Part shown: piece by piece, positions 10,401 through 45,470 of the stretch
How positions within the stretch are numbered: the first letter of the stretch is position 1
How the letters are laid out: each line of letters begins with the position of its first letter
DNA from: Wolfiporia cocos
Lineage: Eukaryota; Basidiomycota; Agaricomycetes; Polyporales; Phaeolaceae
Length of the DNA stretch: 64,000 nt
Assembly: GCA_029448655.1 (NCBI GenBank)
Contig: JACCLO010000006.1
Location: 1,240,001-1,304,000, forward strand
Direction of reading: 5' to 3'
Program-made: the position numbers and the translations under genes
Notes under the pieces: generated by a model
Database searches by the model: none
Told to the model about the DNA's origin: nothing
The model's input: the letters and a program-made list of their open reading frames with translations, nothing else

Positions 10401-12102
10401 CTATCTGTTTCAGTACTGCTCCTGTGGCGAACTGAGATGCATCTGTTTCGAGGATAAACGGTTTCTCCTTATCTGGTGTTCCTAGTGCGGGCGCCGTCGT
10501 GAATGCTTTCTTCATGAATTCGAATGCTTTCTGTTCTTTCTCCGTCCATTGGAACCCTGTCCCTGTGACCGTTTTTGTGAGGTCTACCAAGGGTCGGGCA
10601 TGCGTAGAGTAGTGATCGATAAATTTCCGATAGAAGTTCGCAAATCCTAGGAAGGATCTGACTTCTTTGAGATTTCGGGGAGTCGGCCACTCCTTAATCC
10701 CATTGAGTTTTGCTGGGTCCATCTGGATATTTCCTGGGGTGATGACTAGTCCCAGAAATTCGACTCTGTCGACACCGAAGGCGCATTTCTCGGGTTTCAC
10801 AAAGAGGTGGTTATCCACCAATCTCTGAAGGATCCGCCGCTCCCGTTCCTTGTGTATTTTCTCGTTTTCTGAGAAAATGAGGATGTCGTCCATATAAACA
10901 AGCACCCATCCTTCGAGGATTTCTTCTTTCAGGATTTCGTTCATCATTGCCTGAAAGGTCCCGGGTGCATTGCACAATCCGAAAAACATAACCGTGGGCT
11001 CGTACAACCCTCGGTTCGTTTTGAAAGCCGCTTTCCATTCGTCTCCTTTTTTGATTCGCACGTTGTTGTATCCCGCTCTAAGGTCCATTTTTGTGAAGAT
11101 CTTTGCTCCTTTTAGCTTTTCCAGGAGCTCTGAGATCAGTGGCAAGGGATAAACGTTCTTTATCGTCCCTTCATTCAGATATCGATAATCTTGACAGGGT
11201 CGTAGGCCGCTGTCTTTCTTTGGGACGAAAAAGAATGGTGACGCCATTGGGGATTTTGAAGGGACTATGAATCCCTTGGCCAAGTTTTCTTTTAGGAATT
11301 CGTCCAGCGCCTGTTGCTCTTTAGGCGAGAGTGCATAGACTTTGCAGTCTTTCGGTACGAAATCGGGTTTTAATTCGATTGCGTGGTCCCATGGTCTCGA
11401 TGGGGGAAACGCTGCTGCGGATTCCTTACTGAACACCTTGGCGAAGTCCAGTAGGTGTTTCGGGACCATCTCTTCAATCGTTCGTTCTGGTTCGGGGGTT
11501 TTTTGTGCGAATTCCTGGGATTTCGTCAGCGCTTTCCTGACAGCGTTGATGATTTGTATCTTTGTTCGGAACTTCTTTCGCGTCTCCCCTTTCTTTCCTA
11601 TGATCCTAGGGTTATCTTTTGCGAAGCGTCGGATCGCTTCGTACTCTTCGGGAGTATAGAGCCGCTGCGCTGTTTCTTCTGGCTGGTCCGTGGATCCGAA
11701 TCCTTTCTCCCCTCGTTCTGTTTCGTCTAGGTCTTCGACTTCTAAGATGTCGGGGGTGAGGTGTCGTTCGAAAATTATCTGGGCTATTCGCATGCCCGGA
11801 ATAATTCTATGCGCTTTGTCTGAGTAGTTGAAGACGATGGCTCCGACGTCTCCTCGGTAGTCCGAGTCTATGATTCCGGCTTGTACCACCAATCCGTGTC
11901 TGAGGGTGTTGCCTGATCGTCCGGCCAGCCTTCCATACGATCCCTTTGGGATCTTCATTTTTACTCCTGTGGAGACGAGTTTCCATCCTCCGGCGGGAAT
12001 CTCGGTTTCTTCTGCGGCGTAAAGGTCATACCCTGCAGCTTCTTGGGTCCCCCTTGTTGGAATTTTTCCTTCTGGGGCAACTACCATCTCCACTGTATCC
12101 AT
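7429..12102 (-). CDS. pol: Gypsy Pol: dUTPase, reverse transcriptase, RNase H, integrase, chromodomain
   Basis: Domains in order (residues from ATG 12102): dUTPase 10-140 with the family motifs AGYDLYA, GRLAGRSG, GIIDSDYRG, GMRIAQIIF and RGEKGFGSTD; reverse transcriptase about 240-450 with catalytic YMDD at 403-406; RNase H about 545-680 (ETDAS, YDRELLGI, DHQNLTYW); integrase with an HHCC-type N-terminus (about 766-807) and catalytic D838, D899 and E935, the last two 35 residues apart as in the D,D35E family; chromodomain about 1134-1184 (YEVEAILADR, FVKWKGY, NSWED). It copies element RNA into DNA and integrates it, and the chromodomain suggests targeting to modified chromatin. The frame stays open for 370 more residues without any domain and overlaps ORF3 there. 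Protease lies upstream in the same frame behind a TGA. Confidence 0.9.
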   Translation of the reverse strand: MDTVEMVVAPEGKIPTRGTQEAAGYDLYAAEETEIPAGGWKLVSTGVKMKIPKGSYGRLAGRSGNTLRHGLVVQAGIIDSDYRGDVGAIVFNYSDKAHRIIPGMRIAQIIFERHLTPDILEVEDLDETERGEKGFGSTDQPEETAQRLYTPEEYEAIRRFAKDNPRIIGKKGETRKKFRTKIQIINAVRKALTKSQEFAQKTPEPERTIEEMVPKHLLDFAKVFSKESAAAFPPSRPWDHAIELKPDFVPKDCKVYALSPKEQQALDEFLKENLAKGFIVPSKSPMASPFFFVPKKDSGLRPCQDYRYLNEGTIKNVYPLPLISELLEKLKGAKIFTKMDLRAGYNNVRIKKGDEWKAAFKTNRGLYEPTVMFFGLCNAPGTFQAMMNEILKEEILEGWVLVYMDDILIFSENEKIHKERERRILQRLVDNHLFVKPEKCAFGVDRVEFLGLVITPGNIQMDPAKLNGIKEWPTPRNLKEVRSFLGFANFYRKFIDHYSTHARPLVDLTKTVTGTGFQWTEKEQKAFEFMKKAFTTAPALGTPDKEKPFILETDASQFATGAVLKQIDETGSERPVGYLSQSLTPTERNYEIYDRELLGIVRALEEWRHLLEGAPHRILIRSDHQNLTYWRSAQRLNRRQARWHLFLSQFDLKLQHVPGRKLVMADTLSKLYHLDKSNEDNEGITMIPDELVVHAIQIPIIDRIKNANDRDESAEQAIRALGGTGEFPARTTADEWQQTDGILLYRGRMYVPKDEGLRRDVISKYHDTIPAGHPGIWGTTVQVTTHFWWPDMRTMIAEYVRGCAICQQMKPDRNQLKPPLQPIPTREDALPFSQCSVDFVTDLPRVGKYDSMMVIVDHGLSKAISLTPCDKTITSEGAAEIFHRKIYSLYGIPRKIISDRGPQFASKLFKELCKLQGTESAMSTAYHPQTDGQTERMNQQIEVYLRIYCMNDPFQWVQRLPDVEFAHNTRRTENRPAPLEIILGYVPRGFPDYDRVGNVPAAVDRIKKIKEARKMAFIAHELAQKRMAGRFLRELPKLEKGDKVWLDAKNLTIPYESNKLAPKREGPFTITEKMGPTTYRLQLPTSWKVHPVFHAALLKPFKETRVHGPNYLRPPPDVIKGQEEYEVEAILADRWKGKKHQYFVKWKGYATADNSWEDKANLEHSKELIKDYHRTRVRTTPALENRTVIVCRRLATSSPAVPRPPAMQIVEKADREVRHQEGTPPSIYRLDTPSSGTGPRDLLLAEPMAGRPSSTSRRTSPTFTARTRTSPRTSSEWRGRSERRERDSSYSPTDLSTDWPPPRRPDYDMHSTTSRIASTLLPVDPNTHRDPPAFSPPTNDAELQGRLILWRAIEYYFRCLPRLRGPAEQELETRRHVFLVWEATGDVNHLHARRALGLPQRDSEERIARRLFDDLLQCRVLPARSLSEVRGSTNETPPPYQHGPHETSTEPHTTGGTNITNTSAISLPYGYQRGPHPSSRVDNVVPLTTGSSTAPIIFAELVGSINQVIDRMNATNTSYGELLRPRPSAGTATSTTSRTPRHSEEGNLENSSRPTNA
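7472..8533 (-). CDS. Gypsy ORF3: 353-aa protein with two zinc knuckles, overlapping the pol frame
   Basis: The ATG at 8533 lies just after the chromodomain codons of pol (which end near 8550), in another frame, and the ORF runs to 7472. The frame is also open upstream to 8701. Near the C-terminus are two consecutive CCHC-type motifs: C-x2-C-x4-H-x4-C (CRQCGSANHWILDC) and C-x2-C-x6-H-x4-C (CRTCGLNQPGHRQNEC). The middle is Arg- and Pro-rich, and an N-terminal stretch (about residues 50-110) is helical. The location, 3' of integrase, is where some elements carry an extra or env-like gene, but there is no signal peptide or membrane segment. Inference: a nucleic-acid-binding accessory protein. Both frames are open for over 1 kb, and I favour this one because of the zinc motifs. 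Confidence 0.6.
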   Translation of the reverse strand: MSTTRHQLPRRTTTPGDADRREGRPRGTPPRRYSPQHLQIRHALLWYRAEGPFAGRADGWSALFDITQDLTHVYSSYQNITEDLVRMEGQIRAQREGLELLTDRLIDRLAATTTARLRHALNDFEDREHVAPSRPEYTPRPARFFTPDERRRVARPFDFMEGDRVLFPLPTETQRARRTGVRDPTPRISGMGGNGRREPPARPTSPRATPARQRRANSTPPIRRSPSVQSITREEFERGAREHERDTASLPTWAARNLHRAAHHWRYQHNEYLRDIPSLRVPARPSPEQSCRQCGSANHWILDCPDYICRTCGLNQPGHRQNECHQHFVWRTPTTPSLSGNGDIYNEQDAEAL

Positions 12103-14035: not shown

Positions 14036-15095
14036 ATGATATTTGGACCAGAATTCCCAGCACGACTGATTGAACTCTTGCCCGAGGACATTCAGGGAGT
14101 CTACAGACTCAACCGATACGAGTGGACTGACACCATTGGAGCCTTCCGTAACCGCGGAGGAATTGTTGTCATTCCAAGAGAAGATAGGGCATCGAAGTGG
14201 GTAGAAGTATACCCCTCCGCAAGAACGACCGCTTGGGAAATAACGCGTGAAGCATTCGAACGATTCGGAGAAATCCCTCCGATGTCAACCGCGACGTTGA
14301 CCGAAAACGAAACCGAAACCATCAACAGAACCTTCGATGCCGATGGAAATACGAATCAGCCTTCGGGCGACACAGGAATGGCAGGAACTGAGCGCATCGG
14401 AGATGATGGGAGAAATCCTGGAAACTTTACAGGAACAGATAACAGCCAGACCGGAGGACAGGACCCTCCAAGATTTATATCTGCTTTTGCGCAGAGTGGG
14501 ATTGGGCCTATGGCTGGAGGAACAGACCTCTTTGGAAACCCCCCACAGAACGCACCCGGAATGGGTAGCGGAGGAAATCCGTCTTGGACTAGCCCAAGCG
14601 GAGGAATGGGAACGACAAACCCAGGAACATGGCCTTCAGGCCTATTTGGACGAACCTCCGCAGGTACAAGCGGAGGAGGACTGGGAGGAAACTTCGGACT
14701 CGGAGGAGGGAATGCCCCCCCTCCTGGAGGACTCGGAGGAGGAGCCCCCGCGAACCCCGGAGGAGGAAACCCTGGAGGGAACCCAGGGAACCCCGGAGGA
14801 AACCCAGGAAACCCGGGTGGAGGATACCCGGGAGGAGGAGGACCCCCAGGAGGGCCTCCACCACCGAATGCGCCGCAGCCTCAACCTCCGGCGCCGAACC
14901 CGTACTACCGACCCCCGATGATAAAGATCAATCCCCCAGACGTATTTGACGGGGAAAGATCCGACATGCAGAACTTCATAAACCAGTGCAATTCCTGGTT
15001 TACGATGTACGAAACGTCATTTCAGAACGACGTTCAGAGAGTGATCTTTATCCTCTCTTATATTTCAAACAAGGGGAAAACGGGCCAATGGAAAC
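14036..15095 (+). pseudogene. gag: Gypsy gag, 5' half, in inverted orientation
   Basis: The frame opens 35 bases after the primer-binding site. It encodes a polar N-terminus, a Gly/Pro/Asn-rich low-complexity stretch (about residues 160-285, repeated GGNPGN units), then Gag matrix/capsid-like sequence (INPPDVFDGERSDMQNFINQ, FILSYISNKGKTGQW). It stops being Gag at the GAAAC duplication (15091-15095), where the next LTR begins. It is the missing front of the gag at 12570-13361 and lies on the opposite strand because of the inversion. Confidence 0.82.
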
Positions 15096-15723
15096 TGTTA
15101 CGGGTCGAATACCCGTTCGTATATTTGAGTCGCGAATATAGATCGTTCTTCTGCACGTGGGCGTATAGCCGTATGCAAGGCAAATGCTCGTTAGATGCCT
15201 TCAAGTTCTAGGTGAAGTTCCTAAGTCCGAGAAGTCAGTGTGCACTTCGAGGACTTAGTCGTTCGGTTGCTCGAGTGAGAAATACTGAGCGTAGTTTCCT
15301 ACGTTTGAGAATGAGTATAAGACTTCTTGTTTATACAACAAGGTCGAGCTGAAGAGCCTCGACAGTAAGTACATTAGTTTATATACCACGTTGGGTTTCA
15401 GGGGTCAAGTCCGTCCCAGATGTCACCGATACTATCTATGCTATAGTACCAAACGTTTGATAGGTATGTAGTGATATACCTGAGACGATAGATAGGAATG
15501 ATGGTGGTTGAACGCCATCTATCAGCTAACAAACGATGAACATGAAACGGTGGCAGAGTTGGATCTGCCAAAGATGAAACGCGCCCTATAGACTAGTACA
15601 ACTGGGGATGCGCCCAGTAGAGTCACGAGTAGCCAGGGGAGTTGGTTGCGCAACAAGTCCCTGTATCGTATTCGCCCAATGGTGAGTTCTGTCGATATTT
15701 GAAAAATCAAAATAACCGTAACA
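15096..15723 (-). repeat. outer 5' LTR of the Gypsy element (628 bp, short form)
   Basis: On the minus strand it reads TGTTACGGTTATTTTG to ACCCGTAACA, the same orientation as the 3' LTR. GCCTT follows at 15724-15728 and matches 6705-6709, so this is the true outer edge of the insertion. It lacks the 80-bp segment kept by the other outer LTR, which is unexpected for two LTRs made in one integration and points to later exchange with the nested LTR. Confidence 0.9.
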
Positions 15724-18244: not shown

Positions 18245-19420
18245 ATGCCCACAGTCTCATCGGGAAAGGTGCTTGTCACCGGGGCTAACGGCTATGTCGC
18301 GTCCTGGGTTGTGCGCACATTGCTCGAGCAAGGTTATTCAGTGCGAGCCACTGTTCGTTCGGAGAGCAAGGCATCTCACCTGCGCACAATCTTCTCTGCT
18401 TATGGCGATAAGCTGGAATTCGCCATTGTAGAGGATATGGTCAAGGCATGGCTACCCGATGGCGCAAAATATATCATATCTGACGCGCAGTAGCCAGGGG
18501 CTTTCGATGATGCAGTCAAAGGCGTGGATGCTATCGAACATGTGGCATCACCCTGCCAAACCCAAGCAGACGACCCGGATGAATTGATTGTGCCTGCAGT
18601 GAACGGTGTCTTGCACGTTCTAGAGTCTGCACGGGATTATGGAGCCTCCGTGAAGCGCATCGTCATGACCTCGTCCTGCGCGGCGATCTTCGAATGGCAC
18701 GCCACGCCACGCGTATTCACCGAGGCCGATTGGAATGAGCAAACCCTTTCTGACGTTAAGCTGAACGGCCGGGGTGCAGATCAGCTGAGCAAATACATGG
18801 CGAGCAAAGTATTGGCGGAGCGTGCGGCATGGGACTTCGTCAGCAAGCACAAGGGCGAGATCGGTTGGGAGCTTGTCGTGTTGAATCCGCCTTGGATATT
18901 CGGTCCGGTCATTTCTGAAGCAAAGAACGCTGAATCAATGACTTCGAGCATGAACGTTTGGTACCAAGTCGTTCTACAGAACGCAAATAATACCAGGACC
19001 GAGGGGTGAGCAAAGCCATGGACATCCTATGATAGACATGACACTTATAATCCATGCAGTGGCGTATGGATTGACGTACGCGATCTCGCTGAGGCGCATG
19101 TCCTTGCTATCAAGAAGCCAGAGCCTGCAAACAACAGGATCATTGTAGCACAGGGACCGTTCAAGTGGCAGGACTGGGGTGAGTACTCCCCATTTGTTCA
19201 TATGACGTAGTCGCAAATAACATGTACTCTAGTCGTTGCGGCAAGCAAGTGTGGCGTGAAGACATCTGCCATCGATGACACTAACGATCCTTCCAATGCC
19301 GGGGCCTCGATCACCTTCGATACCTCTAAAGCGGCGAGTTTGCTGGGATTGAAGTATCGCACAATCCAGGAGAGCGCATTCGATATTATCGAGGAATTTA
19401 GGAGGAGAGAATGGCTGTGA
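18245..19420 (+). CDS. extended SDR NAD(P)H-dependent aldehyde/ketone reductase, copy 1
   Basis: Exons 18245-18445, 18494-19005, 19060-19178 and 19233-19420 give 339 aa. The N-terminus has the cofactor motif LVTGANGYVASWV, the centre TSSC and the catalytic YMASK (Tyr-x3-Lys), and the C-terminus ends in a conserved helical cap. The family (dihydroflavonol-4-reductase, cinnamoyl-CoA reductase, yeast-type aldehyde reductase II) reduces aldehydes or ketones with NAD(P)H in the cytosol; the substrate here is unknown. The first intron starts with GC (AAG/GCATGG) at exactly the position where all paralogues have GT, so it is a GC-AG intron. It is the first of four intact copies in the window. Confidence 0.85.
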
Positions 19421-20698: not shown

Positions 20699-22985
20699 CG
20701 GGTTCGTTCATGATGCGATGGTGTAGCTGTGCGATGTGAGATATATATGGTATGTGCAAAAAAAGTATAGATCATGCAGATGAATGGATACAAGAGCTCA
20801 GAACGCTTGCATAGTAGCCGTTGCCAAAACGCTCTAACATATCGGAGGAAATCTCGTCGTGTGGATTTGACCATGCTATGGTGACCGCGCTGGAGGTAAA
20901 TCATCTTGCACAAGATCAAATTACACCACAGAATAATCGATCTGTGTAGAATGATTGACGCTAGCAGAAGTGAGACGTTGTATCGTCCAGCAAAGAGGTC
21001 ACGGTTAGACTCGGAGAAGCCAGATTCAGTGTCCACACGATTTCAACGACAGAAAGATTCGACGGTCAAACATCCAAAGTTAACACAAGCCGTTGTTAAA
21101 AGGTCATATTTCAAGCCATGCCGGCTTCAGCAGTGTGATTTAATTACCTTCGACTGACAAGGAGAAGGTTGACTTGTCAAAATTGAAGCCAGTTTCGACC
21201 AACAGACGCCCATACGCACGTGTGTGCTTGATGACGACGGTTCGACTCCCACAGAGCGCATACATGGCATTCTATAATCACCACTTTGAGAAATGTTGCT
21301 ATGCCTATATTTTGTCTCATTCAGTGTTTAAGCTTGCTTGTAGTATATTCCTTCTCCAGGGTGGAGACTTAATCATTTAGTGCGTGGCACTTGGTGCGCC
21401 ACAGTCTATCAGTAGGCGCCGCAGTGATGTGCATTGCCGCGACGCCAGAACACAGCTGCGCACCAGCTTCCCTGCGAAGATCGCTGCCCGTTTCGCATAC
21501 CATCTGGTGCAATGAGCGGACCAACGCATACGGATACGCGTAGGTCGCTTAGATATGACGCCCTACTGTCGTGTTCCCTCCCGCCTCGATCCGCTGTCAC
21601 CTCCCTCACCAGATGTGCTGGTCAAGCGGCCACGCTTCTAGTATATTCAGTGTACGTACTGCTTTGCCGGTTTGGAGACTCATTCCATAGTGTTGGGATT
21701 GCTGAATGGTTGTGACCTTCAGTCACTTCGGACTTGACGCTGTTATGTCTAGTAGATACAGCACTGTATGATTTACATAAAAAAATCACTATCCCTCTTG
21801 CCGTAGCCATCACGGATGTCCTAGTTGTGAAATGGTACAATAGAGTGCATGAACGCATTCAGGCGAAGGTCAAGCGCCAATGCCAGTTGGCACTTCCTCG
21901 TGATGGAATATAAGCCACAATCACACTCTGATCGTAGACTCAAGTGAGCTCGTCAATCAGACAACGGTGCTGCCCGAATCTGGCAAGCTGATGGCGCCGT
22001 CGATAACAGTTGCTGATTATAATTACCTTCCATCCCCATTGTTTCCTGCTTTCCGCTCGCATGAACACTCGATGATATCTTAGATCGGTGAACTGTCGTG
22101 AGTATCGCGCCTATGCTGTGGCGGCTTTTGCAGTCACTGCAATCCGCACACGAACTCTCCTTCTGCGCGCCCACATAAGTCTTCTAAAAGGAGGTATATC
22201 ACTTCGTCACGTCTCGACTATTCGACGTTCGCAAAAGCCCGTCCGTTTTCCATGATGTATTGTTGGTGTGTACAGAGGAGGATGAACCCGTACAGTAGCT
22301 AAGCTTATCGACGCTCCGCTTTGTTAGGCATGCAACGACTTTCACTCACGATCGCTGTATCAAGTTTGATCACATCTATTGCAATTCTTTGATGCAAGAC
22401 ACAGGATAATCGAATATGATATTCGATCGGAAATAGCTGTAGCAGTGATACCTATGCCTGCCCCATAGAAGCTACTACAAACAATGTACTTCCGACTCGA
22501 TGGACTGGCCAGGTTCATTTCGTGCCACAGCGTCATGCACATGTGATAGGAAGTCTGTTGCATATCGCTGATCGATGTAGCCTCACGGCCAAGGTGAGGC
22601 GTCGACATTACAATAGGATTACTTCATGCATTCGAAGCCGACAAATGATCTCTGGATTGCCACGGACCAATCAGACGCTTTACATCACAAAGCGAGATTA
22701 CAGTAGGCGTGAAAGACTAAGCCTCAGGATTCTTAATATTCATTTGCAGTTCTTCACTGATGAGAGGGTGGTGCGAAGATCACTTCCGCTCGTTCATCAA
22801 ACGCATGTGAACCTAGAGCCTTCATTCGACTGATCAAGGGCCGCATCCTCGTTCGGTCGCTGAGTATCCAGTAGCACACCGGATATTCTGCATAACCAAT
22901 GAAGCGCGCACGTTTACAACGCGATATCGGCGTGCTCTGGTCGCTGCGCATATATGCCCCGAGGATATTGAACAGCATTGTCGGG
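20699..22985. other. 2.3-kb region without a recognisable gene
   Basis: Only short ORFs are present, none with a domain or a plausible exon chain that I could build. AT content is higher than in the genes. No repeat with clear ends was found. Confidence 0.35.
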
Positions 22986-22993
22986 CATATAAG
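22986..22993 (+). promoter_or_regulatory. TATA box of the small cysteine-peptide gene
   Basis: CATATAAGAGC lies about 70 bases before the ATG at 23063. The same CATATAAGAGC occurs at the same kind of distance before the paralogous gene at 32649-32806, so it is likely a conserved core promoter. Confidence 0.6.
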
Positions 22994-23062
22994 AGCGTTG
23001 GCCTACCGTCGATTTTCTTCAGCCCTCGACTACATCTCAATCGACTCATCTATCCAATCGAC

Positions 23063-23221
23063 ATGTCTGTCAGTACATCTTTCTTTGTTCTATCATTCTG
23101 ACACGAGGCATTGATTATCGTTTCCCAACAGGACACTGCACAGTGCGCTAACACGCAGGCCAACGGCGGCACCTGCTCATGGCCGACATGCGGCTGCGCT
23201 GAGCCGCCAAAGGGCAAGTGA
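23063..23221 (+). CDS. 31-residue cysteine-containing peptide, copy A
   Basis: Exon 1 is only ATG TCT (23063-23068). A 63-bp intron (GTCAGT...CAACAG, 23069-23131) follows, and exon 2 is 23132-23221, ending TGA. The peptide has Cys at positions 7, 17, 22 and 24 (C-x9-C-x4-C-x-C) in the context GGTCSWPTCGCAEPP, ends in lysines, and has no signal peptide. A second copy with the same gene structure and 27 of 31 identical residues lies at 32649-32806, which argues strongly that it is real. I do not recognise the family. A metal-binding, metallothionein-like role is possible, but the Trp and the low Cys count are unusual for that. Confidence 0.65.
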
Positions 23222-24189
23222 ATTGGGACCTTGTTCTGCAGGTACGCGCAGGATCTTCTTGCCTCCAGGAGTTTCTGAGACTGATGAGGTGAGCGCAGGC
23301 ATACCCGCCAAATCGACTACGTTCCCCGAGAGCAGGAGCTAGACTGATATGATGCTTGGTCATGTCGTGTTATAATGTCTGCAAACAACGGATGATCGGA
23401 AAGCTACTCATCTGAGGAGACCGCAGATGGGTCCGATTTGAGCCTAAGACACAAGGTGACGACATGGACCGTGATAGATTACCTGAGTTTAAGAGATCCG
23501 AGGATCTGGCAGTGATCTGAAAATTTCAGCAGCGATCTGGGCATATGGGCTGCGGCTTGAAGGGCTGCATCAGCATCGGAATGACGTGACGCTGCTGCCT
23601 GATGCAAAGTGACCAAATACGTTTGATATGGCGCCCGCTTCGTTCAGGTGGACGTTTTGAAAGAGTAAATCCACCGCGCACATTGCATCCGACCGTCAGG
23701 AGACACTCCAAGTGTTCCGCACAATGGCGCCCCTGCCACAATGTTGGTTGAGATGAGTGTCATCTGATAAAACCATCCCACTCACCGGTGAATTTATGTC
23801 GAAAAGCACTCTCGCGGGGCAAATACACGAGAATAAATACAACGAGCGATGTATTGTACCCTCTATGAACATACATCGCATCTAAGACACATGGCATGCC
23901 GCAAACGTATACGATAGTTAACGGGGCCGGTAGCAAACATAATAGGTCGGAAGACGATGACGATTAAAGGGGTTACGGGAGAGGGGTGTCATGCGGGTCA
24001 TAGTTCATCAATGCTAGGATTAGATCGTCACAAATACAGGTGGAACATAGCCGAAGAGAATACACGATATGCTGAGTGTGCAGGTTGAATTGTCGATCCT
24101 TGCTTTGTTTATATGCGAATATACAGCGCCATGTCCACGCGCTGCCTCCCTCATCCACCGGAAACGAATAAGGATACCAGCACGTACCC
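23222..24189. other. region without a recognisable gene
   Basis: This lies between the small peptide gene and the 3' end of the T6P synthase gene. Short ORFs only; nothing recognised. Confidence 0.35.
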
Positions 24190-26394
24190 CTATGCGCTCG
24201 CAGTCACGGCCGGCGCGTTGGATGGTGGCGTCATCGGCACAGTGCCATTCACGAGGAGGCTACCCTTCAGGTCTTCGCGCTTCAGGAACAGCTCGGCTTG
24301 ACCGCCCTTCTGCTGGACAGCGGGTTCCACCTCAGGCGTTCGCAACTTGGTCATCTCCCCGACGAAAGACGTGCCCCAGAACGCTGCCGAGTACTTGTTG
24401 ACATACTACATAATATAATCAGATGGCTATTTTAAGTGATGAAACAATACGTACTTTGAACAGTTTTCTGTGGTTCTCTGCTCGTGACTCAGGATCCATT
24501 GTGACCGCCTCAAAGATCGCATCAGCGACCTGCTGCGAGTCCCAGGGGTTGACGACGAGACTGCCGTTCAGGCTCTGCGCCGCACCGGCAAACTCGGACA
24601 GGATCATGACACCTTGTCTCTCCTGCTGGCATGCAATGTACTCATACGATACCTTCCTCGGTAGTGAGCCATCAAGACATACGGGAGAACCGGGATGCGC
24701 ACCAAGTTCATACCGTCCCTCGTCGAGCTGACCAAGCATACGTCACTGACGGCATACAGCGCACATAGCTCGTCGAACGGCAAGCTCTTGTGCATGAAGT
24801 GGATCGGAACGAAGTCGACCGTCCCGAAGCGGCCGTTGATCCGGCCCACGAGCTCGTTGACCGTCGCACGCAGATTCTGGTACTCCTCGACGTCCTGGCG
24901 CGACGGCACGGCGAGCTGCGCGAGGACGACCTTGCCGATCCACTCGGGGTGCTGGCTTAGGAAGAGCTCGAGCGCATGCAGCTTCTGCGGCACGCCCTTG
25001 ATGTAGTCGAGCCGGTCGACGCCAACGATCACCTTGACGTCACCAAAGCGTGACTGAAGCTGCTGGATGCGCTTCTGCACGCTTTCCTTCTTCAAGTTCT
25101 ATTTTCCAGTGAGTATGAGCGTGCGCCGGTTATGATGGGTGCAGCTCACCTCGATAAACGACGTTGGGTCGATTCCAATCGGGAACGTTCCCACATGGGC
25201 GAGGCGCCCTTCGAACTCCACACCGTTCGGCATGGTTGGGAGGGCCAGGATACGTGTGCATGACGACAGGAAATGCCGCGCGTAGTCATACGTGTGGAAA
25301 CCAATGAGGTCTGAGTAGAGGATCCCCAACAAGATTTCGCGCCGGACGGGGAGAATTCTGCCCAATGGTCATGATGAGTTTTGGGGGACAGACGCAGCAG
25401 TCGAGAAGACGGAGATAGCACGTCGCAGCAGCACACTTCAACCGGATAAGTCGAAGATGATAGCCGCAGTCTAAAGTCTATGCTAGCGTGAGCCGACTCC
25501 ACGTTCTTCGATTCGCGCTATGCGTTTACATCTTTGCCTCGCGCGCGCAGTCCAGCTTCCTCGCGACAGCGACAAAAATTGCAAGACGAGTGATCGGAGA
25601 ACTCACCTGTAGATTTCGCTAGATGGGAAGGGCGTGTGCAGGAAGAAGCCGATCTTTACGTCCGGCACACGTGGAGGAGGGACCTCGTCAGCGTCAATGC
25701 CCTCAAGAATGTGCTCGATTTCAATGCTCGTCGTCTCGCCCACATTTTGGGGGCCGTCGAGGAGCGTGCGAAGGAACATGGGAAGGAGCATTAGGTGGTA
25801 GTCCTGCACCCACACCATAGAACCCGGCTTGATCTGCTGCAAGATAGCGTGCGCGAATGCCATGTTCGCCTGCCGGTATGCCAGCCAGTTCTCCTCGTCA
25901 AAGTTCATCTCGCCAGGGTGGTAGTGGAAGAGGGGCCAGAGGATGGAGTTACTGAAGCCGTTGTAATGTCTGTCGGCGACATCGTCATCGAGGTAGACAG
26001 CCTGGCAGGAGTACTCCTCCATGAGTCGTTTATCAACGATCGGGCGATCTTTGGGCGGAATGAAGAAACCCGGCCAGCCGATCCAGGTGAAGGACATGGA
26101 CTTTTTGCAGCCAGAGAGCGCGGAGACGAGTCCGCCAGAGGACATCTTGAAGTGGTATTCGCCTGAGGCATCCTTTGTTATGGTAACGGGAAGTCGATTT
26201 GAGACGACGATGAAGTGTCCCTGTTCGACGTCGAGCTCGGGGACACTAGTCGAAGTAGGGGAGAGCAGCTCTGAGGTGCTGCTCGAGACAGATGGGCGGG
26301 CCATGACGGAAGCTGCTGCGGTCGACGGTGAGGACGAGTACAGGAGCGGCGGTGGCAGTTGCCTGCGACGAGGAAGAGGGAAGACGAATTGCAC
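24190..26394 (-). CDS. TPS1: alpha,alpha-trehalose-phosphate synthase (UDP-forming)
   Basis: Exons 26394-25607, 25357-25150, 25098-24703, 24652-24455 and 24405-24190 give 601 aa. It is a GT20 glycosyltransferase that joins UDP-glucose and glucose-6-phosphate into trehalose-6-phosphate in the cytosol, the first step of trehalose synthesis for stress protection and spore reserves. Visible hallmarks: SNRLPVT near the N-terminus, WIGWPG, VQDYHLMLLP, FFLHTPFPSSEIYR, VDRLDYIKGVPQKL, STRDGMNLV split by an intron after Leu, SEFAGAAQSLNGSLVVNPWD. There is no phosphatase domain. The N-terminal 60 residues are low-complexity, so the second Met (26304) is an alternative start. The first intron (249 bp) is long for this window. 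Confidence 0.92.
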
Positions 26395-28101
26395 GACGCG
26401 ACTGCTCGCGCGGGGTTAAGTATCTGGCTCTTGGGCAGGCGAAACGGAGGAGTTATAGATGATGTCACGCGTGCGGAAAGAACCGTCAGAATTTTCCAGT
26501 AAATTCCCTCCAGCATCTGATATCCCGGAAATGGACATTGAAATATTGTTAGCGTACTTATCCAGGAAGTAATTTCACCGCCAAGTATACGCGATCTGTC
26601 ACATTCGCCTGTTTTGCTGCGCGATGCTTAGCCGTTGCACGGTCTCCTCTCCATTGGACGCTAGGCTAGCTTGACTGGGGGCGCTGGCACCTCATGCTTG
26701 TGTTGATATTAGGTATTCGGAGCCATTCGCTAGTCTCGAATGACGAGGGGATCGCGCAGACGATTGCCCAGGTTGGACATCGCAGGCGCGCCCACGACCC
26801 ATGACCGGCCCGTAAACCTCGTTCAGGAATACAGACTCAACGATAGAGCGTACGAGGCTGCTTAGAATTGACGGCATTAGTTCGGAGAGTACAAAAGGCT
26901 CGACGCGTCCGCAACGAGTCCGTTGTCCCGGAGGACAAGTCCAGATTCCGTGGCGAACTTGGTCTTGCTACGTCCTATGCTGCGGAAAATCCTGCTATGA
27001 TCTCTCGATTTGGGCCGCTGGATGGCTGTGCGACTTACGAAAGCTCTCCTACGAGACTGGCTTGTTGAGGCTGATGAGCATGCTCTTGCTCGGTGAATTC
27101 GAAGTTGCTCGTGACATTAAGCTGGGTCGCCTTAATTTTGACTCGCCGTCGGTCATTGCCTTCGCCGTAGTGCCGGTTTCTCTCGTTTCCACACCTTTGT
27201 CCATGGGAGCAACCAGCTGTCTCTTTTGAAGTCAAGCTGCTGTCGACAAATACCGGATTGCTATCTGTATTTCAGCTGACTGACATGACTACAACTGTCC
27301 TTGTAGGGTGGTATGTTCAGACATCTGATGGCGACTTGCTCTCGAAGGTGATTATCTCGTTAGTGCTCTTTGATCAAACCTGGACTGGTTTCGAGTGGGA
27401 TCGAGGGTTATTTGACGATGTTATGCCGCTAACAACGCATTCTATGAGAAGGAAGCCCACACATTCGCACTTATCATGAGGGTCAGTCTGTCGTAAGTCC
27501 CCTATCAGTGCAGCCGCTGCATTGACTGCGACGGCCCATGTATGCTTTCCAGAACTATGCTATCGTATTATCTTCAGCCTAGATCGATGGAATCGAGGGC
27601 CCTTCCGTTCCGGGAATCTTGCCAAACTCATCGGGGGACATATAATATCCCCTCTAAGGCCGAGCTGACTCGTCTGAAAGATAGAGCAGTGTCCTAACCC
27701 TAACGTTACTCTGAATGTTGCGACATACTTGAGTACGTCTCTACATAGCACTGATGGCCACGATTACAATAATATACGCGGCGACAGCCCACAAGCCTAA
27801 GACACCGGTCTTTCAAGTAGTAATCAACTTGACTCATTGGATCCACATCCAACACCGAAGCCAAGTCCATAAGTAAGACATCTGGTGGTGTTCATATGTC
27901 CTCGCATGCGTTCTGGCGAACTGTCCCTCGGACGTCGCGCATATTAATACACCGACAGCCGCTTCCGCGCCGATCTGACAAAGACGAACCGTTATAAGGA
28001 TCGTCGATTTCCACGGAAGGGCTCCCGCAACTCCCGCTCACCCTCGTTTCTCAGCTTACACCTGAACCCATACGCACTACTGCGCAGAGCCGCTGATCAT
28101 T
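26395..28101. other. 1.7-kb intergenic region without a recognisable gene
   Basis: It separates the divergently placed T6P synthase and reductase copy 3, so both promoters should lie here. Short ORFs have no recognisable product. Confidence 0.35.
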
Positions 28102-29304
28102 ATGCCCGCTGTTACTACAGGCAAAGTGCTCGTCACCGGAGCTAATGGCTTCATCGCGATGTGGGTTGTGCGCACGTTGCTCGAGCAGGGTTACACAGTC
28201 AGAGGGACGGTGCGTTCCGAGAGCAAGGCAGCGCATCTCCGTCAGGTCTTCGCTACGTACAGCGATAAGCTCGAGATCTTGATCGTCGAAGACATTACCA
28301 AGGTGCGTGCCGATTCATATTGCAATCGACTCGAGTGAAGCTCATGGCATTTTATGATAACCCCATTAGGAGGGAGCGTTCGACGAGGCGGTACAGGGCG
28401 TAGACGCGGTCGAGCACACTGCGTCACCGTTCCACTTCAAGGCGGACGACCCGGATGAGCTGATCGTCCCCGCGGTGCACGGCACGACGCGCGTACTCGA
28501 GTCTGTGCGGACGCACGGTACAAGCGTGCGGCGCGTCGTCGTGACGTCGTCCTGCGCGTCCGTGATGCAGCTGCAGCCGGAGCCGCGGGTGTTCTCCGAG
28601 GTGGACTGGAACGACGCGGCGATTGCAGAGGTGCGCGCAAAGGGCCGCGCCGCGCCGCAGCCCGCCAAGTACCGGGCGAGCAAGACGCTCGCGGAGCGGG
28701 CGGCATGGGAGTTCATGGAGCGCAACAAGGGCAGCATCGGCTTTGACCTCGTTGTGCTCAACCCGCCATACGTGTTCGGCCCGGCTATCCATGAGGTTGG
28801 CGCGCCGGAGGCGCTAAACGAGAGCATGCACGACTGGTTCCACACGGTGTTCAAGGGATCGAAGACGGCCACGCAGCTGTCGAGCGTTGGGTAGAATCAA
28901 ATGTCCGGACGACGTGAGCTCTGCTGATTTGGTGCATGTAGATCGAGCTGGATTGACGTGCGCGATCTGGCGGAGGCACACACGCTGGCACTGAAGAGAG
29001 AAGAGGCCGGCGGTGAGCGGATTATCGTCTCCGAGGGTGCATTCATGTGGCAGGACTGGGGTGCGTCATTAGGAGCTTCCGAGTGCTATTGACTTGTCTC
29101 ATCTACAAATACCTAGTGAATGCTGCGCGGGTCCACGGCGCCAATGTCCCTGCAGGCGACGAATCCTACGATCACGCCAAGGCTGTGCACTCCCTCAGAT
29201 ACGATACTTCCAAGGCTGCCAGACTACTCGGGCTGAAGTATCGCTCGATCAAGGAGAGTGCCAAAGATATGTTCGAGGACTTTAAGGCGAGGGGCTGGGT
29301 TTGA
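28102..29304 (+). CDS. extended SDR NAD(P)H-dependent aldehyde/ketone reductase, copy 3
   Basis: Exons 28102-28302, 28370-28890, 28942-29060 and 29117-29304 give 342 aa with GT-AG introns at the same positions and phases (0, 2, 1) as its paralogues. Cofactor motif LVTGANGFIAMWV, TSSC, catalytic YRASK followed by TLAERAAWEF, and VLNPPYVFGP are all intact. The second exon is notably GC-rich compared with the other copies. It should be an active cytosolic reductase of unknown substrate. Confidence 0.88.
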
Positions 29305-29550
29305 AGTGGCCCAACACTTATGAATGGAAATCGCGAATATGAAAATTTCTATATTTCGGCATGACGCTATGTTTATAGATATGTTGAACTGTTATGTCGT
29401 AAAGCTATTGTTCTCGCACGACGCAGTGGTCTTCCCTTGTAGAGGACTCACAATCTGGCAATATCCGTGGTTTGAGACATCGGGTCGAATTATTGCTTTC
29501 GCGAGCTTGAAAGTGGTGCGCGTCACTGCAGGAGAAGATTTACAATATAC

Positions 29551-29739
29551 TAACGCCGGACCCCTTCTGCACAATGGACCCCTTCCCGTCTGCACAATCG
29601 ATTCTGCAGAGGCAACAATGCATCGAAAAATATTGTGTGGATGCTAGACATGTAGACGAAGATTTCTGTATCATTTTCCTTGACACTCCTGATTTATGTC
29701 GTTATACAAAATCGATTGTGCAGAAGTGGTCCGGCGTTA
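29551..29739. mobile_element. 189-bp MITE-like element
   Basis: The left end TAACGCCGGACCCCTTCTGC is the reverse complement, with few changes, of the right end GTGGTCCGGCGTTA, and CTGCACAATCGATT recurs in inverted form further in. It has no coding capacity. It lies 155 bp upstream of the RFC5 start codon and so inside its promoter region. Confidence 0.6.
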
Positions 29740-29894
29740 AGTATTGGAATCGTGCCCGATGCGCTGATCTAATATATGGTAAACGCGTTATGTCACGCGT
29801 TTTGTCACATTCGCGGTTGTTTTGCCGCCGCAGCTGACACCCTTCGTCCACTCCTCTCTGCCGTTCGTTTTCCCTTCTGCCTCTCTCGACCGTC

Positions 29895-31570
29895 ATGTCT
29901 CTCTGGGTTGACAAGGTAAAACGCTCCTGCCAAGACCTCCCATCGGGTACCTCCTAATGCTCTCGCTGTAACAGCACCGACCGCGCGTCCTCGACGACCT
30001 CCATTATCACGCAGGCCTCTCTGCGCGATTACGCGCATTAGTAAGCTAATACTTCAGTATTCTTGCGCTTTGTAACGCTCGCGCGGACTAGGCTGCGTCT
30101 GGAGACTTCCCACACATGCTCTTCTATGGCCCATCGGGCGCGGGGAAGAAGACGCGTATTGCTTGCACGTTAAGGGAGCTGTTTGGCAAGGGGGCGGAGA
30201 AGGTATGTGTACTTCCGTATCTATGTGATCATTGATAGCTCAAACAATATGTGAACGGGTGTAGCTCAAGATCGACCAGCGTGTATTCATGACGCCCGCC
30301 CGACGGAAACTGGATGTGAACGTCGTACAAAGCAACTACCACATCGAAATCACGCCGAGGTACGTGTCATGTTCTTTCCACCGAATACTATTAAACACGT
30401 TATCGCCAAAGTGAAGTGGGAAACTACGACAGAGTAGTCATTCAAGAGTTGCTGAAAGAAATCGCGCAAACGCAGCAAGTTGATCTTAGCGCCAAACAAC
30501 GCTTCAAAGGCCAGTCCTCCTGCTAACGTAACGCACGATCAATCCTTGATGTGCAGATGTAGTTGTCATCATCAACGAAGCTGACTCACTATCCCGCGAC
30601 GCGCAGGCCGCGCTGCGACGCACAATGGAGAAGTACATGTCGAATATGCGAATCATCCTCTGCACAAACTCAACATCAAAACTTATTGCGCCAATAAAGA
30701 GCCGGTGTCTCCTTGTCCGTGTGGCCGCGCCTACCACCGAAGAGGTGCATGTTAACACGCAGAAGGTGTACGGGAACTTCGTGCTGACAGTGACTGCAAT
30801 GCAGATGATCGACGTTCTGCGACACGTTGGTAGAAAAGAGGGCTTCGACGTCCCTGACAAGATCGCGCACGAGATCGCAGAGGATGCAAACGGTAACATG
30901 CGCAAGGCCGTTCTCGTGCTCGAGGCACTGAAGATGCAGTCGTATGTACCTCAGCCATCGTTCATGCAGATCAACATCTAACTTCAGATTTGTGATCTTT
31001 GCGGGATGAGCAGGACAGACCTTGATAAGCCTCTCACAATCGCGAAGCCCGACTGGGAGACGTACTGCCACAAGGTGGGCGACATGATCATCCAGGAGCA
31101 GTCACCTGCGCGCGTGATGGAGGTGCGCGCGAAGCTGTACGAACTGCTCAGCCATTGTATACCACCCACCATTGTGCTAAAAGTATGTTGCTTTCGTGAC
31201 TCCACTCATTTGCGATTAATTCTCAATGTTGGCATGATCAACGTGCATTAGACGATCGCCGAACGCGTGGTGCAGCAAGTCGATGAGAGCCTGAAGGCAG
31301 AGATTATGCACTGGGCCGCGATATATGTACGTCCTACTATGATCACTCTTCCTCGTGTGTTGCTGATCGTTGAACTGGTCTGTCGGATTCCAGGAGGTGC
31401 GCATGCGTATAGGCAACAAGAAGATATATCACCTCGAGGCGTGGGTTGTCAAGGTCATGAGTCTATACAAGGTATACAAGCCTCTTATGTGCTTTCGGAG
31501 ACGGGATGCTGACTGATTCTGATCGCAGCATCTCTTCTATGATATCAATATGACAGATTTTGACGACTGA
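29895..31570 (+). CDS. RFC5: replication factor C subunit 5 (RFC3 in animals), clamp-loader small subunit
   Basis: Eleven exons (29895-29915, 29975-30040, 30092-30202, 30265-30359, 30412-30509, 30557-30744, 30805-30941, 31014-31182, 31252-31326, 31394-31471, 31529-31570) give 359 aa, close to the 354 of yeast Rfc5. The AAA+ protein is part of the nuclear RFC pentamer that loads PCNA at primer ends. Visible are the N-terminal MSLWVDK, P-loop [11 protein letters not shown], the Rfc-box IINEADSL in place of a DEAD box, ALRRTMEKY, and PIKSRCLL (SRC motif). Oddities: the usually constant Tyr after WVDK is His; intron 5 is GC-AG (AAAG/GCCAGT); intron 6 (30745-30804) is 60 bp with no stop, so an unspliced RNA would read through. 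Confidence 0.9.
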
Positions 31571-32648
31571 AAGTATTATTGGAACCAGGCAGTGGATTCG
31601 ATTGTGTAGGATTCGCATTAGGACACGGGACGCACCTTGTGAGGTTGCACATATGCATGGTATTGCACCAAACCGCAATGATAATGCCAAGTTAATGGCG
31701 ATATGTGTTCCATTCGCGGCATTCCGTCTGCCGTTCTATCCAACGCATGATTATGGGTTCAAGTATGTGGTGCAGATAACCATACTGACGGTGACATGTT
31801 TTCCAAAGGCAGTCTCCGATCGTGAAAGCTGCAAACGAAGCAACTCCGGATGACAAGACGCTGTTGCGTCAAGATAGTGAGGCAGGGAGATAACCACGCA
31901 GGGCCACGCTCAGTTTAGCCTTCAGTATGCTAAAGGACTTTTACGGACTTTCATTACAGTGCAGGAACAGACATCAACGCAATTAACAATTATCAACAGT
32001 CCAAAGCTCACGCATCTCCTATACTCCTGCCACGGTCAGCTCTATACGATGCTATCCAGCCGGATGTCTAGAGGTTCGACGTCTCAGCCACTACATTCGG
32101 ACGGCCGTCACACCAATAGTTCATTTAATGCACGTCGCGCTCTCCGTCCTGATCGATATCATCATGCCTGCAATGCTAACGCGTATTGAACCCCTCCGAC
32201 GCTGACCTGCTCATTATCTGCTACTGGTACGAGTTGTGTGGCAAGAAGACATTCTCCTCGCATGAGGTGGTTGATTTCGCATGTCTCGGTGCGGCGCCGC
32301 GACGATCAATAGGTAGAAGCACTGCTAGAAGGTTACTTGGTCCGATTTGTTTCAGAATTAGCTGTTGCGAAGGCCATGTCCCTTCAGTTGTGTCAGGTGA
32401 CTATCCCTGTCAAATACACTGCTGGTTGTGGCTCATTATGAATTGCGGCAGCACTCAAGACGGAAGCCCATGAATAACGATGCATTATCTGCAGACCCGT
32501 GCATCATGTTACCGACAGCTCCCCCCAGCATTTCGCATCCCAGGATACAACTACATGTCGGGATGTCTGCACACTGTGCATTAGTTTCATTGCTCTCTGA
32601 ACGGCTGGAACAGTTATCTTTATTCACCTGCAGGATTGATCCTGGACT
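31571..32648. other. 1.1-kb region without a recognisable gene
   Basis: Short ORFs only. The convergent ends of RFC5 and the small peptide gene copy B flank it. Confidence 0.35.
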
Positions 32649-32806
32649 TTACTTGCTTTTGGGTGGCTCAGCGCAGCCGCAGGTCGGCCAGGAGCAGGTG
32701 CCGCCGTTAGCCTGGACGTTAGCGCACTGTGCGGTTTCCTGCCGCGTAGAAATCATTAGCTCTATGGCCAGAAATAAGACATCCATTATGCGATACTAAC
32801 AGACAT
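32649..32806 (-). CDS. 31-residue cysteine-containing peptide, copy B
   Basis: Exon 1 is ATG TCT (32806-32801), the intron is 32800-32739 (GTTAGT...GGCAG, 62 bp), and exon 2 is 32738-32649 ending TAA. The peptide differs from copy A at four residues (Asp/Glu at 3, Thr/Val at 10, Gly/Ser at 30 and one near the N-terminus by codon use only), keeping all four Cys, the Trp and the Pro residues. Intron position and phase are identical. The third-base changes between copies with few amino-acid changes suggest purifying selection. It lies in opposite orientation to copy A, about 9.4 kb away. Function unknown. Confidence 0.65.
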
Positions 32807-32875
32807 GTTGTATGAGTGAGTCGGTTGGAACTGTGGTGTAGTCGAAGACTGGGGGATCCTAACTGTGAGCGAGGG

Positions 32876-32886
32876 CTCTTATATGC
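32876..32886 (-). promoter_or_regulatory. TATA box of small cysteine-peptide gene copy B
   Basis: On the minus strand CATATAAGAGC lies about 70 bases upstream of the ATG at 32806, the same sequence and spacing as before copy A. Confidence 0.6.
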
Positions 32887-34324
32887 TCGAGCAGTGCGTT
32901 CACTGTCAGCATCAATGTCCACGAGACGCGCTAGGCCCGCGTTGCAATCGCGCGCACTCCGTTGGCTGCTCGCAATGCATGTTACGCTACTGGTCACCGC
33001 AGACGCCGGAAGAGAGCGCAGCGCTTCGTCAGATGTCCCAGGACTTCAGATCTGCACGAGTATCCCGTATGCGTCAGAGACGAATCCACGGCGGTGCATA
33101 TAGTGTCGTACTTCATTCCAATCCGACAAATCTGACTGGTCCTCAACAGCTCTGAGCGAAGAGCCGAGTCAACGAAGCGACTGATATCAGTGCCTCATCC
33201 CGAGCGGAGAACTACTGCCAATGAACATTGCTCATCAGATATCAGAGCGCGGATATCCCAGCGCACGAGGCTACGGGCACGGACCCGGCTCTACGCGTGA
33301 TCCCAAGACCCGTCTGCTACTTAGCTGAGCTATGGGAGTGGGGATGGGCAACCCCGCCTAGAAATGTGTTCTGAGCTTATCACGTCGGAGTCTGAATTAC
33401 TTACCCAATGTGGTATTTAGATGCCGAGACTGCAAATGTGCCGCTATCGACGCTGGTACTATCGGGACCTGAGCCTGTACCACTGTAGACATGGCTATGT
33501 ACTGCAACATTCATTCAAGATTCAAGCTACGTAGATGCTCAAGATATAATGAAACATACAATGAGCCCTTGATATCTTTGCCAGTTCTTTTCAGCAACTC
33601 CTCGACAATATCGAGCCATCGAACGCGACGTGGCGGCGCTCGCATCCCAGTTAGGAAGGCGGGTGCATTCATACCACTGGCACGTAAATATTCTGCACCT
33701 CACAAGTACATTCATTCTGTAGGTAGGTAATGATCTCAGAGCGCTTTCTTGATAGTGTAGTTTCGACCTGAGCGATCTGAGGGTCCTATCGCTTTTCACA
33801 TCATGATTGGCAAGCATTCTAAATCATACTCCCATACATTGATGGATTGGTATCTCCTCCTTCAATAGTGATCTACAGCAAAAACCTAGTACACAGATCA
33901 ATCTTGTTTGCTTTTCTGCAGAAATCGTTGGGAACACATTTCCGTTAAACTGTCTCGTAGTTGCGGTGTGCCATGTGCGATGTACGAAATTGTACAGTAC
34001 AGATTTTATCTCAAAATTCTGTTCCGAAGAAATTGATGTATTCAATGTTCTGAGCAATACATCCCATTGATACAAGGCATGAATGTTTTTATCTGAGGAG
34101 CCTTTACATTGATACCGTCGCGCTCTGCGCGCCAGCGCGCCAAGCTCGTGCCGCAGTGAGAGCTGTCCGGCATGTACTGTGGTGTGTGATAGACGCCGGA
34201 CATCCGGAATTTGCCGCTCCCCTACGGTTGCCCCTCCCCAATGGGAGATCATCGCCATGTTTCATCTACTCACGGTGCTGCAAATAGTGTGGCTCTCACT
34301 GATTCAAGTACCCACTATGCGGGG
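32887..34324. other. region without a recognisable gene
   Basis: Short ORFs without recognisable product. 33270-33350 on the minus strand has a tRNA-like A-box (ATAGCTCAGCTAAGTAG) but no matching arms, so no tRNA is called. Confidence 0.35.
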
Positions 34325-44279: not shown

Positions 44280-45470
44280 ATGCCGGCGGTCACTCGCGGA
44301 AAGGTTCTAGTCACCGGCGCGAACGGATTCGTCGCTGCCTGGGTTGTGTATGACCTATTAAAGCAGAGTTATTCGGTCAGGGCGACTGTACGCTCCGAAA
44401 ACAAGTCGACCCACCTTCGCAATGTATTCGGCTCCTATGGCGACAGGTTAGAGATTGTGGTAGTAGAGGACATCACGAAAGTACGCCGCCACAATCACCT
44501 ATGTAGCTGTATGATCTTGACACATACTAGGAAGGGGCGTTTGACGAGGCGGTCCAGGGTGTGGATGCAATAGAACATATCGCGTCACCTTGTCACCCTG
44601 GCACGGATGACCCACAGGACATGATAATACCAGCGGTTAATGGCACCTTAGGCATTCTACAATCCGCTCGCGCCCATGGAAGCAACGTTCAGCGTGTTGT
44701 GATTACTTCATCCTGCGCCACGATTGCTGAATACACCAACCCACCGCGTGTGTTCACCGAGTACGATTGGAATGAGAAAGCTGTCGTAGAGGTCAAGACA
44801 AAGAAGCGAGATGCACATCCGATAAGCAAATATCGTGCAAGCAAAGTATTGGCGGAACGCGCTGCGTGGAACTTTGTTGAAGAACATAAAGGCGACTTGC
44901 AATGGGACCTCGTAGTACTATGTCCATCATATGTGTTTGGGCCGATGATCCATGAGGTGAAGAGTTTGGACACTATGAATGCAAGTATGAACGGGTGGTA
45001 TCAATGGGTCCTCAAAGGTCTATTTGATCCCACAAGATTGGACATAGAAGGGTATGAATCTGTACAATCGAGGCTAATATACGTACTTACGCTTTCCATA
45101 GCTTCAACTGGGTAGACGTGCGGGATCTTGCCAATGCGCATGTCCTTGCAATACAAAAAATGGAGGCTGCTGGTAGCAGGGTCATCGTCTCTCAGGGCCC
45201 TTGGGACTGGTACGAATGTAGTGAGTCAAGCTGATTTCCTACAAACTAGCGAAATTTTACTATCTATTCGCAGTTGATGTCTGCCGGCAATGCGGAGTGG
45301 AGACACCCGTGAAAGAGCAACGCCCTCGTGCCACCGCAATACCCCATCAGTGGACATATGACACCTCGAAAGCAGAGAAAATACTCGGCATTCGATTCCG
45401 CTCACTACGGGATAGCACAAACGACATCATTCAAAACTTAAGGAGTAAGGGGTGGATTGAGGTCCAGTGA
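44280..45470 (+). CDS. extended SDR NAD(P)H-dependent aldehyde/ketone reductase, copy 7
   Basis: Exons 44280-44480, 44531-45051, 45102-45220 and 45274-45470 give 345 aa. LVTGANGFVAAWV, TSSC and catalytic YRASK are intact. It is the most divergent intact copy: VVLCPSYVFGP replaces the usual VVLNPP, WDWYEC replaces KWQDW at the exon-3 end, and the C-terminus is slightly longer. These differences could mean a different substrate preference. Confidence 0.87.

Follow-up and report, generated by a model that had tools for sequence, protein, structure and literature searches.

Very short four-cysteine peptides encoded by an amplified gene family of Wolfiporia cocos may be an overlooked counterpart of metallothioneins

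Metallothioneins are peptides that keep metals bound within the cell. The available text of PMC12508003 gives as the hallmark of agaricomycete metallothioneins a heptaCys motif, C-x4-C-x-C-x2,3-C-x-C-x4-C-x-C, and places the Cys content of metallothioneins between 13 and 35 mol%. Another described group is formed by the bacterial metallothioneins of family PF02069, represented by PDB entries 6gv6 and 6gv7. In Saccharomyces, CUP1 encodes a small Cys peptide from amplified copies, dosage being the likely point of the amplification; it is longer and far richer in Cys than the peptide described here, and its copies form a tandem array. To our knowledge, classical metallothioneins contain no aromatic residues. 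This study concerns a family of 31-residue peptides in the wood-rotting polypore W. cocos which, judged by sequence, may be an overlooked and very short counterpart of these proteins.

The stretch of DNA analysed, referred to below as the window, comprises 64,000 nucleotides of W. cocos contig JACCLO010000006.1. Reading of the sequence and a script identified in it a spliced gene on the forward strand (copy 1, 23063-23221) that encodes the 31-residue peptide MSDTAQCANTQANGGTCSWPTCGCAEPPKGK. Its first exon (23063-23068) is ATGTCT, the codons for Met-Ser, and is followed by a 63-bp phase 0 intron (23069-23131, GTCAGT...CAACAG) with a branch-like CTGAC starting 34 nt ahead of the intron end, and by a second exon (23132-23221) of 29 codons and a TGA stop, which holds all four Cys. 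The gene model of the preliminary description, with a two-codon first exon, a 63-bp intron and a 29-codon second exon, was thus reproduced, as was its paralogue on the reverse strand (copy 2, 32649-32806), which encodes MSETAQCANVQANGGTCSWPTCGCAEPPKSK and has the same build: a Met-Ser exon (32801-32806), a 62-bp intron (32739-32800), likewise in phase 0, and a second exon of 29 codons and TAA (32649-32738). When the two copies were compared with 1500 bp on either side, a single blastn match was obtained (E up to 1e-8; 86.8% identity over 91 bp), extending from the splice acceptor to the first position of the stop codon. The coding exon has been kept while promoter, intron and flanks have diverged, short promoter elements excepted.

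Several other frames lie in the window. Between the two peptide genes, two frames on the reverse strand (24604-26394) match glycosyltransferase family 20 and are presumably of the trehalose-6-phosphate synthase type. NAD-dependent epimerase/dehydratase frames occur on the forward strand at 18524-19009 and 44561-45115, 26 kb apart. A 1557-aa Ty3/gypsy pol frame on the reverse strand (7432-12102) carries a dUTPase domain at residues 12-138, preceding the matches to reverse transcriptase, RNase H, integrase and chromodomain, and a 391-aa forward frame (14036-15211), which matches DUF4939 over residues 295-372, is possibly, as a guess, a gag-like retroelement remnant.

The two genes had been described as a pair, but they are only two of at least 22 intact genes in the genome. 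A protein search of the genome found at least 26 family copies on three contigs (C56, C2 and C12), and a DNA search found 20 places, both counts being lower bounds. The full model ATGTCT|GTNAGT...AG|exon 2 was recovered by script, with a product of 31 residues, in 22 of the 26 copies, which encode 11 distinct peptides. Across the family, introns of 55-83 bp follow the two-codon first exon, and in every one of the 22 intact copies the unspliced reading is broken by an in-frame stop or a frame-shifting length. The four copies left out of the intact set are L040, in which the start of exon 2 is damaged and the product shorter; L042, with an in-frame stop and without ATGTCT; L044, also without ATGTCT and with one Cys lost; and L043 (C12:2158858-2158935, reverse strand), a divergent copy whose frame is intact, which has lost two Cys and bears the in-frame N-terminal extension MFFSTRPPAQTTFYPSPHNIFAPTID. 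Copies of the L043 type may represent a separate, N-terminally extended ortholog group.

Family copies occur singly, as pairs and in inverted blocks, in contrast to the tandem array of CUP1. On C56, three genes each are gathered in two blocks, at about 1.418-1.421 Mb and 1.521-1.524 Mb (inverted-repeat coordinates C56:1417660-1421550 and C56:1520086-1525529), the outer two genes of each block being mutually inverted. With self-overlaps of the fetched loci set aside by coordinates, the arms of the first block are 99.5% identical over 1170 bp and those of the second 100% identical over 1945 bp, up to the end of the stretch compared, while between the blocks the arms are 86-92% alike, depending on the stretch. 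The higher identity within blocks suggests gene conversion within each of them, with assembly error as an alternative. Amplification by local and inverted duplications is the best reading of the arrangement as a whole.

The promoter element that the preliminary description had reported as common to both window copies was recovered as the TATA box CATATAAGAGC, located at 22986..22996 (+) in copy 1 and at 32875..32885 (-) in copy 2, its TATA standing 75 nt (copy 1) and 77 nt (copy 2) ahead of the start codon; in all 22 intact copies a TATA box lies at -63 to -93. An initiator-like element, CAGCCCTCGAC, is found 32 nt past the TATA box of copy 1 (23020..23030, +) and is likely to mark its transcription start; the corresponding sequence of copy 2 is CAGTCTTCGAC (32841..32851, -). 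The element, CAGTCYTCGAC, 31-33 nt past the TATA box, is present in 18 of the 22 intact copies, in L028 and L031 only in a looser form, and under the pattern used it is absent from L025, L027, L032 and L034.

Motif enrichment was assessed in 13 representative upstream regions, which we chose from the 22 to cut redundancy. CCAAT, seen upstream of copy 1 at 22896..22900 (+), occurs on either strand in all 13 regions, against a mean of 5.5 of 13 in shuffles and with none of 300 shuffles equalling it; of 469 tiles of this length taken from the window, 189 contain one as well, and CCAAT is a general promoter box. No enrichment was observed in these regions for MRE (5/13, compared with 4.2 in shuffles), Ace1-type sites (2/13; 2.9 in shuffles), TTTGCTC (0/13; 0.4 in shuffles), or for the GCTG core, HSE, STRE, AP-1, TKACTAA, GATA and Zap1-like motifs. 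Over-representation was also seen for two strings that had been selected by eye in these very regions: GCGATTRCA in 3 of 13 regions (0/300 shuffles) and CAGTAG in 4 of 13 (17/300 shuffles). The lack of enrichment of the metal and stress motifs tried speaks against simple induction through a known metal element; metal-response elements are, in our judgement, poorly known in these fungi.

All four Cys of the pattern C-x9-C-x4-C-x-C are invariant in the 22 intact copies, as are T4, A8, N9, A12, N13, G14, G15, T16, S18, P20, G23, E26, P27, P28, K29 and K31. Position 19 is always aromatic (W in 16 copies, Y in 6), and His is absent from all 11 distinct peptides. Pooled over 231 pairs of intact copies, pS was 0.417 and pN 0.063, giving a pN/pS of 0.15, the pairs not being independent because the copies share descent and some recent conversion. 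Strong purifying selection acts at the protein level. AlphaFold models of 12 sequences were uninformative (mean pLDDT 56.6).

It could be argued from the many copies, four of the 26 not being intact, that these loci are no genes but either a non-coding repeat that has been conserved or the decaying cargo of a transposon. The probability of this is close to nil, since conservation follows the exon, with variation at synonymous sites and almost none in the amino acids, and nearly the same peptide is present in other genera; the codon pattern already contradicts it. A search of window positions 22000-34000 against Rfam gave no match.

A second alternative is a peptide stapled by disulfides and exported without a leader, with an antimicrobial, signalling or defence role, in which C-S-W-P-x-C would pack around two disulfides. 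In its favour, small disulfide peptides were matched weakly in sequence searches (E 0.7 to 2.4). Cystine-knot and other secreted disulfide peptides, however, carry a signal peptide and at least six Cys, whereas the spliced product begins MSDTAQC, has four Cys and shows on reading no hydrophobic leader. The Cys of a C-x-C also do not lend themselves easily to disulfide pairing, and diversification is usual among defence peptides, while the present sequence is nearly frozen, as the low pN/pS indicates. Together with the Rhizoctonia proteins discussed below, these features make a disulfide-stapled peptide unlikely.

Searches of 5.8 billion proteins, yielding 3, 12 and 11 proteins per search, gave 13 distinct relatives. 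Laetiporus sulphureus accounts for two, each associated with a contig of 642,529 bases; single proteins belong to Rhodonia placenta (P0004), Fomitopsis betulina, Rhodofomes roseus and W. cocos itself (P0012); the remainder are five ENA proteins and two proteins of Rhizoctonia solani (P0013 and P0014). The four Cys are kept in 12 of the 13, the exception being P0012, a decayed member close to the divergent copy L043, N-terminal extension included. The Rhodonia protein, which keeps the four Cys, has PAQTTFYPSP in common with the L043 extension. Three ENA models (P0008, P0010 and P0011) contain MSVSI, which corresponds to ATGTCT read on into an intron beginning GTGAGTAT, so that, as far as proteins can tell, the intron position looks conserved. 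A lack of homologues outside this locus was part of what would have refuted the preliminary description; homologues were found, the genome holding at least 26 copies, the two of the window included, and 13 proteins being known elsewhere. Its statement that no family fits also agrees with our results, as none of five proteins submitted to Pfam matched any model. The eight named records among the 13 proteins are labelled "hypothetical" or "uncharacterized", and a literature search of titles and abstracts by peptide strings, locus tags and topic found no description of the peptide family.

The distribution of these relatives bears on a third alternative, a thiol buffer or antioxidant whose abundant Cys would scavenge the oxidants of brown rot (Fenton chemistry) with no specific metal site. 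Apart from those of Rhizoctonia, the relatives that have a species name and keep four Cys (P0002, P0003, P0004, P0006 and P0007) come from polypores that are brown-rotters, and the high gene copy number would suit such a role. But a plain thiol buffer would need neither exact Cys spacing nor the frozen W/Y-P-x-C-G-C-x-E-P-P, and AP-1, HSE and STRE are among the motifs lacking enrichment in the 13 upstream regions; we regard this explanation as improbable.

The two R. solani proteins probably connect the family with described metallothioneins. Starting at Met 20 of a 73-residue model in P0013 and at Met 1 in P0014, each contains a similar 31-residue module that aligns without a gap, with 15 of 31 (P0013) and 14 of 31 (P0014) residues identical to the nearest family member. 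One residue past the module begins C-x4-C-x-C-x3,4-C-x-C-x4-C-x-C; P0014 fits the heptaCys hallmark exactly, while P0013 has x4. That a similar module sits within a metallothionein-type protein is a further argument against the disulfide-stapled peptide. When P0014 was searched against the 64-Mb genome, all 21 matches were family copies, the best (E 7.2e-5) at window copy 1; no separate heptaCys gene was found, although introns could hide one. A pattern search for C-x4-C-x-C with RRN as middle codon gave 2146 genome sites compared with 1585 in a reversed control, and proved useless for finding a second metallothionein.

Profile searches of the whole database gave P0013 an E of 0.012 with profile A1, which is longer and has one row with residues supplied by us, whereas a clean 31-column profile of the polypore peptides gave E 0.32 for P0013 and 8.3 for P0014. 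In shuffles with the Cys fixed, none of 20000 reached the score of either Rhizoctonia module; among database best hits, two bacterial metallothionein segments were reached by 89 and 11 of 20000 shuffles and a scorpion toxin segment by 46 of 20000. The shuffles alone prove nothing, because unrelated segments picked from the database score high too. Against the heptaCys stretch itself, the family profile gave no match (-8 to -9 bits). We regard the Rhizoctonia module as a likely, though not proven, homologue of the polypore peptides.

By membership tests, the peptide family is neither a heptaCys metallothionein nor a PF02069 protein, as far as its sequences tell, but it may function like a metallothionein. 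The 22 intact copies have only C-x9-C-x4-C-x-C instead of the heptaCys motif, their Cys content (4 of 31 residues, 12.9 mol%) is just under the 13-35% range, and position 19 bears a fixed W or Y where aromatic residues would not be expected. Shared with heptaCys metallothioneins of the AcMT2, AsMT2, PiMT1 and LbMT1 type are the C-x4-C-x-C triad, gene duplication, and, going by the parts of PMC12508003 at hand, short length (31 aa here, 32-59 aa in Table 1 of that paper) and small introns (55-83 bp here, about 50 bp in AcMT1 and AcMT2); in the two Rhizoctonia proteins the two modules are joined. The family differs from them in having four Cys where the motif has seven, in the C-x9-C with which its pattern starts, in the invariable presence of an aromatic residue and in copy number (at least 22 intact genes), and it shows no profile similarity to the heptaCys stretch.

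The bacterial metallothioneins 6gv6 and 6gv7 have an identical C-terminal C-x9-C-x4-C-x-C spacing, and 6gv6 and the family have N-G-x-x-C-x-x-P-x-C-x-C in common, but the fungal peptide lacks His and profile support. A PDB search returned 6gv7 at E 3.0 and 6gv6 at E 7.5, neither of which was among the PDB matches of family profile A3, and the single genome match of PF02069 scored under the cut-off and lay elsewhere than at a family copy. Bacterial and archaeal genomes were scanned as well; among 11 pattern matches, one locus, in a Thermococcus MAG, reached 47% over residues 10-28. An origin from bacterial metallothioneins was rejected in favour of convergence of spacing, since the profile match was lost and PF02069 finds no family copy.

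We consider it rather probable that these very short intracellular peptides work like metallothioneins, as a metal-binding buffer in the cytosol. The preliminary description had suggested a cytosolic metal-binding or redox peptide; of these, metal binding is the best reading and has gained support from the four invariant Cys, the strong purifying selection and the joining of the Rhizoctonia module to a metallothionein motif. A thiolate metal site in the cytosol also agrees with the make-up of the peptide, which has four Cys, one C-x-C, and neither His nor a leader. Each 31-residue chain would use its four thiolates to coordinate a soft metal there, either one Zn2+ or Cd2+ with S4 coordination or a few Cu+ ions on the C-x4-C-x-C triad and the first Cys, possibly shared between chains. 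Such binding would lead to buffering or detoxification, with output raised by the dosage of at least 22 intact genes and by TATA-type promoters. Metal binding, the identity of the metal, cytosolic location, expression, and dosage as the reason for amplification are what we infer from these sequences.

The frozen non-Cys residues exceed the needs of chelation and leave room for a chaperone or partner role. N13, G14, G15, P20, G23, E26, P27, P28, K29 and K31 are as fixed as the Cys, and the peptide, holding one zinc or copper ion, could act as a chaperone that passes the metal to a partner protein or as a small regulator that binds one, W/Y-P and E-P-P-K forming the partner surface. For a protein of this kind at least 22 copies would, in our judgement, be unusual, and no metal-handling domain was found in the 19 frames scanned, a subset of those in the window; the chances of this explanation therefore appear slim. 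A metallothionein-like buffer remains the reading that we favour. In its extended form, which we put forward tentatively and regard as rather doubtful, brown-rot polypores of this group would have replaced the canonical metallothionein by a minimal four-Cys peptide, formerly the N-terminal module of larger metallothioneins, with dose set by copy number and the inverted blocks held identical by gene conversion.

Copper-tolerant brown-rot fungi reduce the value of copper wood preservatives, according to the available part of PMC7746681, and a comparative study, in the portion of PMC9320278 at hand, reports no metallothionein gene in Rhodonia placenta. The family member P0004 of this fungus is a candidate that the latter study, as far as that portion goes, would have missed; gene finding easily misses such a peptide gene because of its small size and two-codon first exon. 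Should the peptides bind metal, the missing buffer inside the cell would have a concrete candidate in this family, which would also exemplify dosage through gene amplification. If the proposed replacement of the canonical metallothionein were also true, the fungi that rot wood treated with copper would possess a hidden intracellular system of metal tolerance.
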